Of a stretch of 60,381 nt of DNA, positions 41,434 through 57,869 are shown one piece after another. The stretch covers positions 1-60,381 of the IMG/VR virus record IMGVR_UViG_3300037235_000083; one strand, 5' to 3'. How positions within the stretch are numbered: position 1 is the stretch's first letter; each line of letters opens with the position of its first letter. Position numbers and translations under genes: made by a program. The notes under the pieces were generated by a model. It had not been told where the DNA came from. It saw only the letters and a program-made list of their open reading frames with translations, and ran no database searches. Origin of the DNA: a virus.

Positions 41434-41460
41434 CTAGATTTAATTCGTATTTAAATCTAG
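41434..41460. promoter_or_regulatory. AT-rich perfect palindrome
   Basis: CTAGATTTAA (41434-41443) and TTAAATCTAG (41451-41460) form a perfect 10-bp inverted repeat with a 7-base loop. It covers the stop codon of one gene and the leader of the next in an otherwise GC-rich region. It could be an operator, a late promoter element or a processing site. There is no T-tract. Confidence 0.45.
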
Positions 41461-42029
41461 ACGTGCCGGCCAGGCCAGATCATGTTCGGGCTGATTGCGG
41501 TGGCCGCCTGCGGCGACTCATTGCCGGGGACCGTGTTAGGTTGCTGCTGATCCGGCAGCATCTTTTGCGGGGGCGGTTCGTCCTGCGCGCCGTCCGGACC
41601 CTTGGCGGTTGCCGCGTTGTCGACGCTGATCGTTTCATCTTCGTTGAACCAGGCCAGCCGTTGACCCACATCACTTTGAGCCGGTGGACCTTTGGGCGCT
41701 TCACCGCTTTTGGCCGCCTCACCGGACATGGGATCCGACGCGGGTGCCTTCTTCGCTGGCTCAGCCGCTCGCGCTTTTGCTTGCGCTTCGCTCTTCTGTT
41801 TTTGCTCGACTTGCATTTTCAGAGACGTCATGGCCGCAGAGGGCGGCGAACTACCACCGCCAGAACCAAACCGACCTTGCTCGTCGCGCTGTTGCTCTGC
41901 GTCCATGGCATCGATGCCGCTGATCGTGCCTTTGTTCGCGCTCGCGTAGAGCACCTGTTCGCCTTTTTCCTTGCCGTACTGGTCCTGCATCGCGCTCTTG
42001 ATTTCCTCGCCCTTCGAGGTCAGTGGCAT
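41457..42029 (-). CDS. Virion-associated-like protein, disordered (190 aa)
   Basis: GGAG precedes the ATG at 42027-42029. The N-terminal segment PLTSKGEEIKSAMQDQYGKEKGEQVLYASANKGTI is a recognisable small domain seen in phage structural regions, then EQQRDEQGRFGSGGG (the DEqGRFg motif also present in the polyprotein at about residue 150), then a long Ala/Pro/Lys disordered part. Function unknown. Confidence 0.6.
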   Translation of the reverse strand: MPLTSKGEEIKSAMQDQYGKEKGEQVLYASANKGTISGIDAMDAEQQRDEQGRFGSGGGSSPPSAAMTSLKMQVEQKQKSEAQAKARAAEPAKKAPASDPMSGEAAKSGEAPKGPPAQSDVGQRLAWFNEDETISVDNAATAKGPDGAQDEPPPQKMLPDQQQPNTVPGNESPQAATAISPNMIWPGRHV

Positions 42030-42031
42030 TT

Positions 42032-42184
42032 TTAGCTCCAATGAATACGGCCGACCAACTCACTTAGAAGCCAGCAGGCGAGGCCCGCCCAGCCCAGCGA
42101 CACACGCGCCGACGCCACGTTCACGGCAGCCAGGATCAGCAAAACGAGCGCGGCCACTTGCAGGATCAGGGTTGCGGTGATCAT
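42032..42184 (-). CDS. Small membrane protein (50 aa)
   Basis: The ATG at 42182-42184 follows AAAGGAAAATCTCCC. The product is nearly all hydrophobic (MITATLILQVAALVLLILAAVNVA..., then LGWAGLACWLLSELV), predicted as two short membrane helices. Its position between head genes is unusual; it may be a late membrane protein. Confidence 0.55.
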   Translation of the reverse strand: MITATLILQVAALVLLILAAVNVASARVSLGWAGLACWLLSELVGRIHWS

Positions 42185-45398: not shown

Positions 45399-46511
45399 TC
45401 AGACCCCAATCATCTGCGCGATGGCGAATGGCTGGCGGATGACTGCGCCCCACGTTCCTTGCGTCATCTTTTGCTTGTAGCTCGAAAGGTCGCGGATGAT
45501 CGGGCCGGCGCGCAGTTTTTCGCTGAACGCGCAGTAGCCCGTTTCCTGGCCTTCGACCTTGGTAGCGATCAGCTGCACGATTTCGCCCGCCGCCGACCCT
45601 TGCGCGTTCTGAGTGGTCAGGGCCCCGTACTGGATGGCCGGAACCACCTTCAGGTTCGGGTAGTTGGTGCCAAGCAGCGTTTTCACGTTCACGTTGTACG
45701 TGTTCGTGAAATTGAGCGCGCCCGCCGAGTGCGGCGACATGCCCAGCACCATGTCGGATTCGGCGTTGATGTTGCCGCCCGATTGCGCAATGAGCTGCAC
45801 GACCAGGGCGACGATGTCGTTGTAGACCTCCAGGCCCGTCGCGTTGGGGCTGTTGCCGATGAACCAGGTCAGGCCCCCGGCCGCCTTTGGTCCCGGCGCG
45901 ATCGCCGCAGGAAGAGACGGATCGTTCAGCAACCCGTAGTTCTGAAGGCCGGCGATGCCGAAGAAGTAGGACAGGTTTTGGAACTTGTTCAGGTTCACGA
46001 TCGAAGCCTGCTTCAGTTCCGAGGCCCAGCCGATCTTGGCCGCGCCCATGCGCTCCATTTCCAGTTCGCCGTACTCGGCGATGGTCTGGTATAGGTAGTT
46101 TTCGCGCTGTGGGAAGTTCGTGTTGGCGCCGGACTTGCCCGCCTGCGAAAAGTCCCCGTAGGTCGAGACCTCGCCCGTGTGTTCAACGACCGAGAAGACG
46201 GCCGTCACGTCGACGAATGAGCCCTTGCGGACTTCGCCGAAGATTTCAGCCGCGGCGTTCTTCGCGGTCAGGATCCGCAGCACTTCCGGATCCAGGAACG
46301 TGACCAGGAAGGCCGGAATGCCGGACTGCGGGGTGGTAACAAGCTGCGGCTGCGCGTCGTAGGCTCCCTTGAAGTCGCGCTTCCAGGAAGGCTTGACGAA
46401 CACCTGAGCGCCGTCAAAAGCGATGCCATAGGTTTCGCGGTAAAAATCGAGCACCGCGCGCTGCTCGCGCAACGACAGGTCGTATGCGAGTCTGTCGGGC
46501 ATTCTGTCCAT
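45399..46511 (-). CDS. Major capsid protein (DUF2184)
   Basis: The 370-residue protein matches DUF2184 capsids: IPAFLVTFLDPEVLRILTAKNAAAEIFGEVRKG, VEHTGEVSTYGDFSQAGKSGANTNF, then LNKFQNLSYFFGIAGLQNYGLLNDPSLPAAI. AAGGA lies at good spacing before the ATG at 46511. A terminator follows it, consistent with high expression of this gene. Confidence 0.9.
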   Translation of the reverse strand: MDRMPDRLAYDLSLREQRAVLDFYRETYGIAFDGAQVFVKPSWKRDFKGAYDAQPQLVTTPQSGIPAFLVTFLDPEVLRILTAKNAAAEIFGEVRKGSFVDVTAVFSVVEHTGEVSTYGDFSQAGKSGANTNFPQRENYLYQTIAEYGELEMERMGAAKIGWASELKQASIVNLNKFQNLSYFFGIAGLQNYGLLNDPSLPAAIAPGPKAAGGLTWFIGNSPNATGLEVYNDIVALVVQLIAQSGGNINAESDMVLGMSPHSAGALNFTNTYNVNVKTLLGTNYPNLKVVPAIQYGALTTQNAQGSAAGEIVQLIATKVEGQETGYCAFSEKLRAGPIIRDLSSYKQKMTQGTWGAVIRQPFAIAQMIGV

Positions 46512-47760: not shown

Positions 47761-50700
47761 TTACACGACGCGCAGGCCTGCCGCGGCTGGCGACAGACTG
47801 GCAATCACGCTGTCGACCGTCGCCGCGGAGTCCGCCGCCATGCGCGGGGGCGGCTCACCGTCGGGCCGGCGCTTGGGCTGCGCGGCCAGAATGTGCTTGT
47901 AGGCGGTCGGGTGCACGTCGGTTAAGTCGATTTCCAAGGCTTCGAGCGCCGCCTTGAAGACGCCCTCAGCCGTATCGCAGGCGAGGGTGAGCTTGCCGAC
48001 CCACGGCTGCACGAAGGCCTCGGCGTCGGCCAGGGCGCGCATCTGCGCCATGGTTTCCTTGCGCGTGTTCTTGGTCGCCTCGGCGATCGCCGCGTCCATG
48101 GCGGCCTTGCTGACTGCTTGGGTCATGGCTGCGTCCTTGTCCTTGAGGGGGTCCTTGCCGGGTGAGGTTGCTGGGGGTTTGGGCTGACCTTCGCCGCCAG
48201 GCGGTTCATCCTGGGCCGGCTTCGTTTCTGCCGGAGTGGGCGAGCCCGCTGGCGCAATTTCGGCATGCGGGCCGGCGGGGCGCAGCGCCTTGAGCTTTTC
48301 GCCCAGCCAAGCGTGATGCTCAGGCTTCAGGTGGGGCTTTAAAGCCTCCAGGATTTCGTTCACCGGATCGGCTTCCCCCGGCTTGGCGCCCGGTGCCGCC
48401 GGTGCTGCGGCGGCCGGCGCGGCTGGCGGTTCGCCTTCGGCCGGCGGGGCATCACCGGCTGCACCATAATCGGAATCCAGCGGTTCGGCGCCGCCGGGCG
48501 CCGGCTCGCCAGCTGGCGGCTCGCCCCCGGCTTCGCCCTCGAGCCCGTCAAGCAATTGCGTCAGGGATGCAACGCTCGCATCCTTGGCCAGGACAGTCGC
48601 CGGCAGTTTCAGCTTGCGAACGGCGGCGATGATTTCGGGCTTTTTCGTCTTCCAGTTATCCGAGGCGCACCCGATCAGGATCTTGTTCAGATCCTTTGCG
48701 AACGCGGGGCGCGCGTCTTTTGCCAGCAGTGGCGGAAGGACCGCGAGCAAGGCTCCCTTCGCCAGCATGGCCTTCCGTGACAGCACTTGCTGGGTGGTTC
48801 CCATCTGACCTGACTCCTTTGGTTGGCTATCTCCCACGATTACGTCGGATCCCGCGCGACCGTCCCGCACCAGTGCGACATGGTTGCCTCGGATTTCACG
48901 CATCACGCCGTCGTAACGGCGCCCCTCGAATACGCCCGGCGTCATATCGGCCACGTACCGGTACGAAGCCGACAGTTCACGCGTCTGATTCGTTTCGATC
49001 TGGTCGCACGCGTCCCCGTCCCAGAACACGAGCGAATTGGTGAGGTACGGCGCATTGAAGGCTGCATCCGTTCCGGTCGACCCGATCACCAGTTCCTTGT
49101 CCAGGTCATCAGCGGTGGTGGGCCGGTGATCGGACAGGAGCGGAATGTTGTTGAAGGTCGGAACCGCCTTGGCCAATTCCTGCGGATCGCGCAGCAGGTA
49201 ATAGACCTTGCGTGGTTCGAGCCCGAGTTCTTCGGCGTCCGGAATCTCGAAACCGTAGTACGGGTTGACGGTCGCCTTGCTGATGTTGGCGACCTCGATG
49301 TGCAGCCGGCCGTCCTGGTCGTAGCTGCGCACGCTCGCGCGATCGAACGCCAGCCGTTCGCCGGTGGCGCGATCGAATGCCAGTTCGGGATCTTCGGCCA
49401 GCTCATCGCCAGCCAAGCGGGCAGGGCGCCCGCTATCGTCTACGGAACTGTCTCGTCCGGATGATCCTTCAGGAAGGCTTGCGCTTCCTGGTCCGCCTGG
49501 TCGTCCGCTTCGTTCGCCAGATCCACCAAGGTCTTGCCCTGATGTTTGGCCGCGAACTTCTTCACGGCTTCCGCCACCTTGGCCGGATCCAGTGAGATAT
49601 TCGTATCGGTCTTGCTTGATTCGGCCATCGTCGAGCAGCTTTTTGGCAACGAGTTTCAGAGACGACTTGATGACCTCTGGATCATACCTCGGAACATCAT
49701 CGATCGATCCGACGTGGATATCGCCCAGGTGGCCCTGATTGTTCAGGATATTGATCTTGACTCTGGGATTGCCCGCATAGTGCTGCGCCAGTTCGCGCAC
49801 CGTTTTCGAGGCGCCCAGATGCGCGTGCTCGAGCGTTGCGCCTTGTACGGCCCGCTTGCGGATCGCGTTGAACGCGAAAGCCTTCTCGATGGGCGAGTTC
49901 GTGTAAACGATGCTGACCGGGCCCGGGGCCGTGTTCAGCGCCTCGTCGATTTTCTTGATCGCGGACTTCGTGTTCGACAGCGTCGAATCGAAGGTCAAGC
50001 CATCGTCAGGCAGCCCTAGCGCCTGGATCGCGACGTCCATCGCTTCGGACTTGCCCGACCCGCTGCCGCCGGCCGTGAACAAGGTCGGGCTCTTATCGCC
50101 GCGCGCGGCCTTGTCCTTCAGTGCCGCCGTGAAGATCATCTTCGACAGCAGCGAAGAGGGCTCATGAACCACCGGCGCGAGCTTGCGATCGCCGACGAAC
50201 GATCGGGACAGGAGTTTCACCTTGTCCGGATCGATCACGTTGCCGAAGCGCTTGCGATAGGTACCGATCAGCGCCTTCGGGTTGTGGCGGATCGCGTCGT
50301 AGAAGCCCTGCTCGATCGCGCGGTGCTCAGGGCTCAGGCCCGCGGCGCGCGTGAAGCCGTGCTCGTCGATGTGCTCAGCTTGTGCAGCGCTCTTTTTCGC
50401 CTGCACGGTTGCGGCACGTTTCGCGGCCGTTTTTTCCTTCTTTTCGTTGGCTAGGTCTTCTTCCTGGAGCGCGTTGGCCTGTTCATACAGACGGCGACTT
50501 TCCTGTGGGTTGCTCGCCCGCAGCGCATTGGATTGCCGCAGTAGATCCTTTTGTTTAGCCCGATTGGCTTCCCGGTTGAATGGCGCAGCGCCACCGCCCT
50601 CACCGAACCGTCCACCCTCGTCGCGCGGGTGCTTGGACTCGTCCCACTCAGCGTCCATTCCCATGCGCGCCGCGGCAAGCATCGGCAGGATGCGTTCTAC

Positions 50701-51078
50701 GCCAGGGTGCAGCGGTTCGGGCGGATCGTCGATCTGCGCCCAAATGTGATCCGTGTGTTCGTAGTTCAATTCCGGAGCGAAGAGGTCATCTTTGACGCGC
50801 TGCACGAAGGTGACGAATTCGACGCCGTCCAGTGTCAGGTGCGCCAGCTCGCGAAGCTTTCCTTCCGGAATGTCACCGATTTCCTCGATCGCCTCGCGCC
50901 GGGCCGTCTCGAGCGGGGTTTCATCATCCTTCGCGGTGCCACCTGGCAGGCACCATTCGCCCGCGTGGTCGCCGCGGCTCGAGCGCTTCAGAAACAGGCA
51001 CAGGCCGTCCGGGGTGATGAACGCAATGCCGGCGCCTTCGGTAACGGCGGTACCGGCGTAGCCCGGATCGAATGGCAT
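47761..51078 (-). CDS. Nudix hydrolase - zeta-like kinase - prohead protease - scaffold polyprotein
   Basis: This is one unbroken frame of 1105 residues. Residues 12-135 are a Nudix hydrolase with an almost perfect Nudix box (G47...E53...R61 E62...E65 E66...G68). Residues 145-165 carry the [15 protein letters not shown] linker. Residues about 250-495 contain a P-loop kinase with GGSGSGKS (337-344), resembling zeta-toxin/UDP-GlcNAc kinase proteins. Residues 497-550 are Gly/Ser-rich. Residues 575-750 are a DUF2213-type prohead protease (PLLSDHRP with His651, ELSASYR with Ser703, [13 protein letters not shown]). The remainder is an Ala/Pro-rich helical scaffold ([20 protein letters not shown]). 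Protease-scaffold fusions are known; the N-terminal enzymes are unusual. Confidence 0.75.
49440..49628 (-). CDS. Possible nested small gene inside the polyprotein linker (62 aa)
   Basis: In another frame, an ATG at 49626-49628 opens a 62-codon frame giving [22 protein letters not shown], then a charged amphipathic helix ending KDHPDETVP. It overlaps exactly the stretch where the polyprotein becomes Gly/Ser-rich and non-globular. That reciprocal pattern suggests the small frame is or was coding. No strong ribosome site is seen. Confidence 0.4.
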
Positions 51079-54750: not shown

Positions 54751-54889
54751 CTTCCGGAATGCTTAGCTTGGCCAGTTCGCGCGCCGTCTGCCGATCCTCT
54801 TCCTCCCACGGTTTCAATCCCAGCATCGCGCGCACCAAGTTCCCGCCAGCCGGGGATTTCCAGATCGCTTTCGCATCAGGGCTCAGCAT
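54716..54889 (-). CDS. Small acidic protein between portal and minor head genes (57 aa)
   Basis: A 57-codon frame (MLSPDAKAIWKSPAGGNLVRAMLG, with an acidic tail EDDDGEGGEDDD) starts 14 bases before the portal stop and overlaps the minor head gene by 35 bases. Its composition is coherent and it joins the two genes, but it is too short to be sure. Confidence 0.5.
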   Translation of the reverse strand: MLSPDAKAIWKSPAGGNLVRAMLGLKPWEEEDRQTARELAKLSIPEDDDGEGGEDDD

Positions 54890-57869
54890 GACCAATCCCC
54901 TTCAGTACGTCTTCGCGGCTCGCGGTCGGGATCTGCTCCCCGAAAATGTCGATGCCGCCTCGTTGAGATTCCTGGAAAGCGAAATCGGCCGCCGATCCCA
55001 AGCGTTCGCCGATCGCCTTACCGCTGCGAATGTTCTCCGCCATCATGCTGGCGATGGCGCCTTCGGCGCTGTTCGTGAGTAGATCGCCCTGTTTCAGGAA
55101 CTTCTTCACTGACACGCCGGAGCGCACCGCGTTGATGATTTGCTTGGCAGCACCGGTGACCAGTTCGCGGATGTCCAGTTCGCCCGCGTCTTTCAGCTTG
55201 GCCATCGAGCCGGCCGCGCGGCTCATGCCGGCGATCAGGGTTCTGGATTCCGGGTCGGTCGCCTGAGCCATCAGCCCGACCAGTTCCGAATCGCCGTAAG
55301 CAGCGTGGAAGGTCGCCGCGTGCATCCGGTCTATCGCCTGGCGGGTAGGGCGCCCGTTCGGCGCAAGCGACTGCTGTTCCGAGGCCGGCATCGTCTGTAT
55401 GAAACCGCGCACTGAGGCCTCGGACGGCTGCCCATCATCGTCGTAATCGATCTGGGACGCATCGAACCGATCCGCGTCGTTTCGGGCCTGCTCCACCGCC
55501 GACAGCGTCAAGGTCTGCGTCGTGTTCGACTCGTCTGCTATGCCCTCGGACACGTCGTCTGCATCCATGACCCGGACCAGTACCGGCGATTTCATCGCGC
55601 GGATCGTCTTGCCCGGGATCCCGTGCACCTTGGCGCCCGCGGCGATCGCCGCCTTGTAGGCATCCGCGGTGCCTTTCTTGTAGGCCTCGATGACGCCGGC
55701 CGTGCGGCCGTTATTGATCGCGACCATCTTGTCAGGGTCTTTGGCGTAGTCGGCGTTCTTCACGCCGTCAGCGCTGTTGGACGTGGATATCTGATCGGCT
55801 TCGACCACCGCGTAACGAACGCCCAGTTCGCGCTTTGGCGTCACGATGATGTCCCGGTGGCCGGTGGCCACGGCAATCCCGCGACCGTGAAGATCGGCCA
55901 CCACGGGCGCGCCGTCGGCCATCGTGGGCGCTGCCATCAGTAGGCGCGGGTTCGGGTTGGCCGCGATCTTGGACATCTGGTTGATGCTCGCCGCGCTCGA
56001 GCGGTTGCGGTTCTGCAAAGACTTCAGCAACCCCTCGAGCTTGGCCGAATGCTCAGGCTTGGGCGCCTCGCCCGCGCCTTCCTTGCCGGCTTTGCGCAGC
56101 ACCATCCCGTTCATGCTGCCGCCCGCGCCACCCTTGACCACCCCGCCTTCGGTGATCAGCACCGGCTGGCCACCGCCTTCTTTGCCGCCGTGTACGGTGA
56201 TCCACTTTTCATCGTGGGCCGGCACGGCGCCATTAGGGCGCGCGCCCGGCGGCCGTGCTCCATTGGGGGGCGGCACCGCGCCCGCGTTCGGATTCGGCGG
56301 CTGTTCGGGTCCAGGCTCGCCCTCCGGACCCAGGCCAGGCAGGCCCATCCCTTCCTCGCCAGGCGGTTCGGGCACCATGCTCACGTCCAGCCCGGAATAG
56401 GGCGAGTCTTCCTGCTGGGCCACCCGGTTGCGCGCCTCAGCCGGCGAAATGACGCCGGAATTGATCATCACTTCGTCGGTGTCGGCCTCCACCTTGCGGG
56501 TTTCGGCCAGGATCTTCATATCGTCGTCCGTCAACGGTTCGTACTTGAAACCGATTTCAGGATCGATTTCACCGAACTTCGCAAGCTGAACGATGTTCAG
56601 AATTCGCGTGATCGGCGGCGTATACAGCGATTGCTGCCAGCTCAGGACATTGCGCCCGAACGTCTTCAGTTCCGGCTCAGCCGTCGCATTCAGGCCCTTG
56701 GGCGTGATGCCGAACATGATGATGAGCGGGATGCCGGTCACCGCAGCCTGGTGTTCCTGTGACTGCGCCTGCAATGCATCCAGGGTACCCAGCGGAACAC
56801 TGATGTTGTCGAGTTCTTCAGTGTCCTTATTGAGCATGAACAGGCTGCGGTTATCGCGCGCGCGATTGAAAAGGTCCGCGCGATTGAACATCTGCGTGCC
56901 GGCGCCCGCATTCAGGATGTCCGTCAGATCCGTCTTAAGCGCCATCACGGAAAAATTGTGGATCAGGTCGGACACCGACTGCCGCGTTCGCAGCCAGTTG
57001 TCCACGTATGGCTTCATGATCTGCGTGAGCGACAGGCCCCCGAACCCGTACACCGGTTTGAGCATGTCCGGCACCGGCCGGCTGACCAGCGTCAGCATCC
57101 GGCTGGCGTGCACTTCCGTGCCCATCACATACCAGCTGGTCGCCTTGAAGAAGTCCGGTTTGAGCGGATTCTGGCTGTTGTAGCGATTCGGATACGTCCA
57201 CATCGCTTCGACCGGAACGAGTTGCTGAATACCTCTGCCGATCTTGGACCTCACATCCAGCAACGGCATCGCCAGTTCGTTTCGATCGCGCTCGCTATCA
57301 ACGCCGATCATGTCAAGGAACAGCTGCCCGCGTCCGAAAAACCCGTCATGCTCGGACATCGTGCAAAGCCGGTCCTGCACTTTCAGCCGCTTGAATTCGG
57401 CCTCGATCACGTCGATCTTGTCGTCTTTGTTTTGTTCTCCCGTGGCGGTGAACTTGATCCATTTCATCGTCATCGCCTTGGCGATGATTTCCGACGGACG
57501 GCGGTATTCGGCCCGCTGGGTCAGTTCGGCCAAGTACGGGTAACCGAAGAAGGTCATCCCCTCGCTAAAGCGGCTGTTCGTCATCCAGTCGAACGTGGAT
57601 GACATGTCCGAGTCCATCGCGAGCTTTACCTTGCTCGGAATCACACCGGGGTGAGGGTCAGCCGTTTCCCATTTCGTGCCGGCGGAAGTCGGCCCAGCCG
57701 CGGCCAAGGCCTCGTCGCTGATCCGCATCGGCGCGCGCCGAACCGGCGTGCCGAGGGGTGCCGCGCTGGCGACCGTTTCCAGTGCGGACGAGACTGGCGC
57801 AGGGCCTTTCGAGGGGGGAGAGAGGTGCCAGCCACGCGCCAGCGCGGCAACCTTCGCGAGCCAGTTCAT
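54876..57869 (-). CDS. Portal protein (DUF1073) fused to DdrB/ParB-like polyvalent domain
   Basis: Residues about 75-490 are a DUF1073 portal (YLAELTQRAEYRRPSEIIAKAMT, PVPDMLKPVYGFGGLSLTQ, FGITPKGLNATAEPE, SGVISPAEARNRV). A Pro/Gly-rich linker (500-552) leads to a WITVHGG...GQPVLITEGGVVKGGAGGSMNG unit and then a DdrB-like ParB domain (about 670-800) with VRYAVVEADQISTSN, MVAINNGRTAGVIEAY, IRAMKSPVLVRVMD and ESNTTQTLTLS. The total of 997 residues is about twice the size of an ordinary portal. DdrB-like domains occur in polyvalent proteins that enter the host with phage DNA. Confidence 0.8.
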   Translation of the reverse strand: MNWLAKVAALARGWHLSPPSKGPAPVSSALETVASAAPLGTPVRRAPMRISDEALAAAGPTSAGTKWETADPHPGVIPSKVKLAMDSDMSSTFDWMTNSRFSEGMTFFGYPYLAELTQRAEYRRPSEIIAKAMTMKWIKFTATGEQNKDDKIDVIEAEFKRLKVQDRLCTMSEHDGFFGRGQLFLDMIGVDSERDRNELAMPLLDVRSKIGRGIQQLVPVEAMWTYPNRYNSQNPLKPDFFKATSWYVMGTEVHASRMLTLVSRPVPDMLKPVYGFGGLSLTQIMKPYVDNWLRTRQSVSDLIHNFSVMALKTDLTDILNAGAGTQMFNRADLFNRARDNRSLFMLNKDTEELDNISVPLGTLDALQAQSQEHQAAVTGIPLIIMFGITPKGLNATAEPELKTFGRNVLSWQQSLYTPPITRILNIVQLAKFGEIDPEIGFKYEPLTDDDMKILAETRKVEADTDEVMINSGVISPAEARNRVAQQEDSPYSGLDVSMVPEPPGEEGMGLPGLGPEGEPGPEQPPNPNAGAVPPPNGARPPGARPNGAVPAHDEKWITVHGGKEGGGQPVLITEGGVVKGGAGGSMNGMVLRKAGKEGAGEAPKPEHSAKLEGLLKSLQNRNRSSAASINQMSKIAANPNPRLLMAAPTMADGAPVVADLHGRGIAVATGHRDIIVTPKRELGVRYAVVEADQISTSNSADGVKNADYAKDPDKMVAINNGRTAGVIEAYKKGTADAYKAAIAAGAKVHGIPGKTIRAMKSPVLVRVMDADDVSEGIADESNTTQTLTLSAVEQARNDADRFDASQIDYDDDGQPSEASVRGFIQTMPASEQQSLAPNGRPTRQAIDRMHAATFHAAYGDSELVGLMAQATDPESRTLIAGMSRAAGSMAKLKDAGELDIRELVTGAAKQIINAVRSGVSVKKFLKQGDLLTNSAEGAIASMMAENIRSGKAIGERLGSAADFAFQESQRGGIDIFGEQIPTASREDVLKGIGHAEP

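Follow-up and report, generated by a model that had tools for sequence, protein, structure and literature searches.

Many phage head proteins are known to carry enzymes, and how these are loaded into the head, freed and delivered has so far been guesswork. The locus described here raises the question in a direct form: is a gene in which a Nudix hydrolase and a zeta-like kinase are joined in frame to a head maturation protease and its scaffold a means of carrying the two enzymes into the phage head and, with the DNA, into the next host? The window, that is, the whole 60,381-base virus record that was analysed, carries on its minus strand an open frame which starts with ATG at 51078 and has no internal stop codon (Table 1), confirming the single 1105-residue frame that an earlier note had read from the DNA with the strand left unstated. 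The genes on the same strand run, in order, terminase, portal, MuF-type head protein, LamG-domain protein, fusion gene, cement protein and major capsid protein.

Table 1. Coordinates of the fusion gene, its parts and the associated head genes in the window (arrow, predicted cut).
Feature	Position	Strand	Basis
Fusion frame, 1105 codons: Nudix, joint, zeta-like kinase, linker, DUF2213 protease, scaffold	47761..51078	-	Frame reading, Pfam, PHROG, identical L002 protein
Nudix domain, residues 15-132	50683..51036	-	Pfam PF00293 E 2.1e-13, intact Nudix box
Joint, residues 139-165: predicted cleavage D142↓A143, then conserved HPR..G[RQK]F linker	50584..50664	-	Motif, joint scans
Zeta-toxin-like P-loop kinase, residues 236-499; Walker A GGSGSGKS 337-344	49582..50373	-	Homology, AlphaFold model, Foldseek
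Nested small gene, 62 aa, +1 frame, ATG at 49628; overlaps kinase 3' end and "Gly/Ser linker"	49440..49628	-	Homology, codon-position GC, L234 homologue
A-x-D cluster between kinase and protease, residues 555-567; also nearest non-ATG start (TTG555) for a separate protease	49378..49416	-	Motif, start scan
DUF2213 head maturation protease domain, residues 584-751	48826..49329	-	Pfam PF09979 E 4.6e-46, phrog_2229
Internal ribosome site AAAGGAG-9 nt-ATG (M759), scaffold-only product predicted	48802..48820	-	Start scan, family comparison
Scaffold part, residues 759-1105, repeated A-x-D motifs	47764..48804	-	PHROG, motif counts
Major capsid protein; predicted maturation cleavage GAYD52↓A53QPQLVTTP	45399..46511	-	PHROG, motif
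Portal (Phage_portal_3) with C-terminal ddrB-ParB domain; A-x-D site PAHD553↓EKW ahead of ddrB-ParB	54876..57869	-	Pfam, motif

The domain order that had been proposed, Nudix hydrolase, P-loop kinase, DUF2213 protease and scaffold, was recovered with Pfam, PHROG and an AlphaFold model; HMM searches placed the Nudix and DUF2213 domains above their Pfam cut-offs and the kinase below its own, with relatives of the kinase above it. The Nudix part scored 50.8 bits against PF00293 (cut-off 21.1), and its box, G47x5E53x7R61EAIEEIGD, is intact when set against the consensus GX5EX7REUXEEXGU. The protease scored 157 bits against PF09979 (cut-off 22) and matched phrog_2229 with an E-value of 5e-122; the candidate catalytic residues H651, S703 and H733 are invariant in an alignment of relatives, and the AlphaFold model of this domain was poor (pLDDT 51) and was discarded. 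Since PHROG 2229, annotated as head maturation protease, spans residues 574-1090 of the fusion, the C-terminal part is read as protease plus scaffold. With a Nudix domain, a zeta-like kinase and the terminase, portal and MuF genes in one cluster, the locus shows the several conflict-associated enzyme domains in one polypeptide, close to packaging genes, that characterize polyvalent proteins (Iyer et al., 2017).

A frameshift introduced by assembly is unlikely, as a second assembled contig (L002) encodes a 100% identical fusion protein from a gene that differs by 11 nucleotides, all of them synonymous third positions, and a chance fusion through sequencing error was rejected on the strength of this intact identical frame. 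All 11 differences lie in the Nudix part, and they are therefore uninformative on the kinase/protease border. They cluster in ~225 bases (50827-51054, fusion residues 9-84), which resembles a recombination patch.

The resemblance of the central domain to zeta-toxin kinases, also put forward in the earlier note, held up under structure prediction. On its own the window kinase scored 13.0 bits against Pfam PF06414 (Zeta_toxin), under the cut-off of 22.3. Further viral relatives were found, four at 49-56% identity (including L022 and L234/L215) and one at 28%, and relatives exceeded the cut-off, with 46.3 bits for L022, 31.5 for L023 and 25.9 for L234/L215. The AlphaFold model of residues 236-499 (pLDDT 81, pTM 0.77) gave gonococcal zeta_1 as the best six Foldseek matches (E 2e-10 to 1.5e-9, TM 0.74), the best PDB matches being zeta_1, zeta, PezT and AvrRxo1, and a viral structure library returned two phage proteins, one of which is named Zeta toxin. 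By sequence, L022 aligned with zeta_1 at E 1e-7. Most of the Walker A motif, its lysine included, is invariant across four relatives, as is D131 (alignment numbering), with the invariant Asp 21 residues past the lysine, such that the window kinase has both Walker A and, after it, an acidic residue at the catalytic place of the zeta fold. Taken together, the relatives above the Pfam cut-off, the modelled fold and the invariant residues settle, at the level of predicted fold and family resemblance rather than of its own Pfam score, that the window kinase is a true zeta relative. Zeta toxins phosphorylate UDP-amino sugars and are held in check by a cognate antitoxin. AvrRxo1, among the fold matches, is an enzyme that we take to be a NAD kinase; UDP-sugars are consequently not the sole candidate substrates. 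A scan of a bacterial and archaeal genome collection found no relative of the kinase.

In other phages the proposed domain order recurred in part. Nudix, DUF2213 protease and scaffold stand in one frame in L005, L006, L007, L010, L011 and L016, and Nudix-DUF2213 in L013 (all from a search with the Nudix part), with further Nudix-DUF2213 fusions in L063, L068, L071, L078, L081, L098 and L099 from a survey of 80 DUF2213 loci. The order including the kinase was found in an independent phage, L234 (IMGVR_UViG_3300047496_000053), with the difference that kinase and protease are separate genes there: Nudix, HPR joint, an extra region, kinase and TGA are followed by a small +1-frame gene and by a protease-scaffold gene with its own GGAGG-ATG. 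Other cargo takes the same position, including the polyvalent-protein domain LPD3, which precedes the protease in L079 and L089, and, in L020 (5809-8919, on a 125-kb contig), Nudix plus the anti-CBASS enzyme Acb1 ahead of a weakly matched XkdF-type protease in one 1037-aa frame. Two extra regions were noted in these loci: a ~150-aa domain without a Pfam match between joint and kinase in L234 (contig about 62857-63353), and a joint plus ~130 aa of cargo between protease and scaffold in L071 (4575-6818), where the internal ATG usual in the family is absent.

Relatives of the kinase, in turn, are attached to other head proteins. In L238 the kinase follows an HPR joint on the portal, and apparently does so in L003 as well, judged from an incomplete upstream part; in L022 it forms part of a polyvalent protein with LPD22 that is 1772 residues long or longer, and a virion protein carrying a transglycosylase lies next to it. 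The portal also bears an ADP-ribosyltransferase (L035) or LPD3 (L079, L097) after the HPR joint, and in L193 portal, joint and protease form one frame. By annotation, the settings of the kinase (portal, protease, polyvalent protein) would all be in the head interior, and homologues of both enzymes occur on portal, protease and virion-associated polyvalent protein, which lends support to the suggestion of the earlier note that the fusion would load its enzymes into the head. The theme of enzymes on head proteins is itself already known: Nudix (NudE-like) domains fused to MuF, portal or a capsid-processing serine peptidase have been described, with packaging and injection proposed (PMC9503650, section 3.5.2), as have a zeta-like kinase fused to MuF among polyvalent proteins (PMC5512222) and the NUDIX-DUF2213 and LPD3-DUF2213 architectures (PMC8770471). 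As far as the literature and sequence collections searched show, Nudix plus zeta-like kinase on a protease-scaffold is a new combination.

What lies between kinase and protease had been described as a Gly/Ser linker (about residues 500-546); codon-position GC and homology do not bear out a designed linker, and instead the DNA codes a small protein in the +1 frame. Over residues 485-546 the GC content by codon position is 0.73/0.66/0.35 in the fusion frame, which becomes 0.66/0.35/0.73 in the +1 frame and there matches the pattern of the real coding domains of this gene (about 0.6-0.7/0.43/0.8). The small frame aligned locally with the small gene of L234 at a score of 73 versus 27.6 +/- 5.2 for shuffled sequences (none of 2000 shuffles reached 73), and a relative in L022 scored 63 versus 24 +/- 4.6, whereas the fusion frame over the same stretch showed no similarity to L234. 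These two lines of evidence indicate that the "linker" is chiefly the small gene read out of frame. In L234 the gene stands by itself between kinase and protease, overlapping the kinase end. The small downstream gene of L023 had no detectable relation to it, and one small gene of L238 was only marginally related to the L234 copy. The placement of the nested small gene resembles that of a toxin-antitoxin pair, and its product may be a partner of the kinase or an antitoxin to it; an epsilon-type antitoxin was considered and set aside, the protein matching no antitoxin or other Pfam family above cut-off.

This finding bears on whether the fusion is made as one chain at all. Nudix-kinase and protease-scaffold could be produced separately, the protease from TTG555 and perhaps coupled to the small gene, the continuous frame being an accident of a lost stop in GC-rich DNA. 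The gene order of L234, with its TGA after the kinase and a separate start for the protease, is what such an arrangement would look like, and the +1-frame signature of residues 485-546, the out-of-frame open stretches of 60-117 codons that are common in the fusion gene, and the position of TTG555 just past the stop of the small gene all agree with it. However, neither TTG555 nor GTG583 is preceded by a ribosome site, in-frame ATGs are absent between codons 347 and 712, direct in-frame Nudix-DUF2213 fusion is the usual form among relatives, and the kinase frame of L022 also runs through the small gene into a longer protein. We therefore regard separate production as somewhat unlikely and hold that kinase and protease are likely joined in frame as one chain in the window phage, the precursor not being a single chain in every phage, since the protease of L234 has its own start and is unfused to the kinase.

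If the enzymes enter the head on one chain with the protease, they may be freed by it, and here the motif content of the locus suggests how. Among non-redundant protease-scaffold frames, A.D[AS] occurred 296 times in the scaffold parts versus 59 expected from shuffling, a five-fold enrichment which overstates the number of independent observations, since homologous scaffold positions are not independent and part may be shared ancestry; A.E[AS], A..D[AS] and AD[AS] were not enriched in the same parts. In a scan of such frames (n=62), [LIVMF]A.D was most enriched in N-terminal extensions (8.5-fold), followed by MuF proteins (4.7-fold), scaffolds (4.5-fold) and capsid proteins (3.3-fold); the protease domain, the terminase and other ORFs showed no enrichment. 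Nearly all related capsid proteins have LAMD↓AQP or a close variant in the N-terminal region, the window counterpart being GAYD52↓A53. In phage E217, whose DUF2213 protease is a distant one, cryo-EM leaves capsid residues 1-65 unseen and the model begins at residue 66 (PMC10329688); the E217 capsid sequence has SAMD64↓S65, one residue from where the model starts. This coincidence at the capsid N-terminus is a stronger point than the scaffold enrichment, and A-x-D↓[A/S/E] looks like the cleavage site of the DUF2213 protease.

Sites of this type are predicted throughout the window fusion, in the scaffold at LAKD788↓A, LAKD833↓A, AAGD876↓A, PAQD957↓E, AAMD995↓A, LACD1035↓T and MAAD1083↓S, and at both joints, MGMD142↓A143 between Nudix and kinase and LAGD558↓E559 between kinase and protease, with more A-x-D up to residue 579. 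The joint sites are weaker: P1' at the kinase/protease border is E, P or R versus the usual A or S, and P3 of the Nudix/kinase site is G, not A. They nevertheless would give a concrete basis, at 142↓143 and 558↓559, to the earlier idea that the protease frees the enzymes. A comparable site, GAQD↓A, immediately precedes the Nudix domain of the Bcep781 portal-Nudix fusion. Separately, a 194-aa protein encoded between the head and tail genes of the window (41457-42041, minus strand) has a site-plus-joint pattern, DAMD↓AEQQRDEQGRFGSGGG, without a Pfam match; it may be a second internal protein that undergoes cleavage.

The HPR..G[RQK]F joint was preceded by an A-x-D site in 19/20 portal, protease or Nudix homologues versus 9/101 other proteins. 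It was considered as part of the cleavage signal and rejected, as an unbiased scan showed the joint to be widespread and, outside the head-protein group, mostly without A-x-D; joint and cleavage site are thus separate features. The longer form WDESKHPR..G[RQK]F is very common in phage multidomain proteins (L119, L176 and about 120 other ORF places), with up to three copies per protein. The window portal has PAHD↓EKWITV..G before ddrB-ParB, and the same W-I-T-V joint follows LAMD↓S in L079, which suggests a second kind of cargo joint.

The relative amounts of cargo and scaffold may be set by translation starts. An in-frame internal ATG with a ribosome site lies at the protease/scaffold border of the window gene, and an ATG is found at this border in 61 of 62 relatives (58% by chance), with a mean Shine-Dalgarno pairing of -4.2 versus -2.2 kcal/mol for other in-frame ATGs (p 2e-11). 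No clear Shine-Dalgarno sequence precedes the fusion's own ATG at 51078. Start strengths of this kind would favour scaffold heavily over cargo-protease, in keeping with what prohead assembly requires.

The balance is, in our judgement, even on whether the chain works as a cargo-protease-scaffold precursor that loads its enzymes into the prohead, frees them by A-x-D cuts and has part of them retained and injected. On this account, a few copies of the full-length chain, with Nudix and zeta-like kinase at the N-terminus, would be made from the weak start, and their scaffold ends would co-assemble with the more abundant scaffold-only product from codon 759, such that the enzymes would be drawn into the prohead. 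At maturation the DUF2213 protease would cut after A-x-D in the scaffold, the capsid protein and the joints, destroying the scaffold and detaching both enzyme domains, Nudix and kinase, from it. Some or all of the enzyme so released would remain in the head and reach the next host along with the DNA; its early targets there might be defence signals or host metabolites linked to nucleotides. Carriage into the prohead on the scaffold end and release by the protease are likely steps, retention and injection possible ones. That a head protein can be protease-processed, packaged and injected has precedents in T4 and in P1 (PMC12810830 for P1).

Freed cargo might also be lost or degraded, as the propeptides cut by the prohead protease of SPN3US mostly exit the head, as such propeptides generally do (PMC10052503). 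Nudix and kinase could in that case act only in assembly or in the producing cell, be cut off at maturation and never be delivered, and the predicted cuts would indeed leave the enzymes with no link to an anchored head component. Yet the catalytic motifs of both enzymes are intact, and both are also found on portal C-termini and in the virion-associated polyvalent protein, neither of which is a scaffold propeptide. Large folded domains, here of 130-260 residues, also leave through a phage shell less readily than short peptides, and we consider such a loss of both enzymes unlikely. That kinase and nested small gene are instead a toxin-antitoxin-like addiction or exclusion module hitch-hiking in the head operon, with packaging irrelevant, we find very improbable, given that the zeta fold, and the conserved small gene that the window, L234 and L022 all have across the 3' end of the kinase, are offset by a small protein matching no Pfam antitoxin, by portal-kinase fusions (L003, L238) without the small gene, and by a kinase tied to virion proteins in the close viral relatives with readable context. 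Returning to the delivered precursor, a bolder form of it, which strikes us as quite improbable, is a self-releasing toxin cargo, in which the free +1-frame partner would silence the kinase in the producer and be left behind at packaging, the protease-freed kinase becoming active only after injection.

The DUF2213 protease family is large, with members in hundreds of sequenced phages, those of Pseudomonas and Acinetobacter among them. Should A-x-D↓[A/S/E] prove to be its cut site, cargo release would be predictable from sequence and testable in E217 or Bcep781, and the nested small gene, if a true partner, would represent a way to keep toxic cargo silent until delivery.

The lambda C/Nu3 nested protease-scaffold genes are the model for an internal start that yields scaffold alone, a feature shared here with a protease that is of the DUF2213 type. 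The similarity to the epsilon/zeta systems, as represented by gonococcal zeta_1 (PDB 6EPH/6EPG), lies in the predicted fold and Walker A, with the difference that the window kinase is fused to virion proteins and that no epsilon homologue was detected. The SPN3US prohead protease gp245, which cleaves C-terminal to A-X-E and favours Ser at P1' (PMC10052503), has a similar motif logic and multiple propeptide sites, whereas the P1 residue predicted in the window is Asp and the phage group is another. T4 Alt and internal proteins, and P1 DarA (PMC12810830 for P1), are processed by a prohead protease, packaged and injected, and the window cargo would work alike; they are not homologous to the window cargo, which is fused to the protease-scaffold itself. 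The polyvalent proteins of phages and conjugative elements (PMC5512222) likewise are multi-enzyme chains tied to head morphogenesis genes with zeta-like kinase cargo, and the window portal carries ddrB-ParB; the carrier is MuF there and the protease-scaffold here. Also close are the fusions of Nudix to MuF, portal or peptidase (PMC9503650; PMC8770471), which have Nudix in frame with the head protease, and to which the window adds a zeta-like kinase and a nested small gene between Nudix and protease, the cut sites and the internal scaffold start being proposed here.
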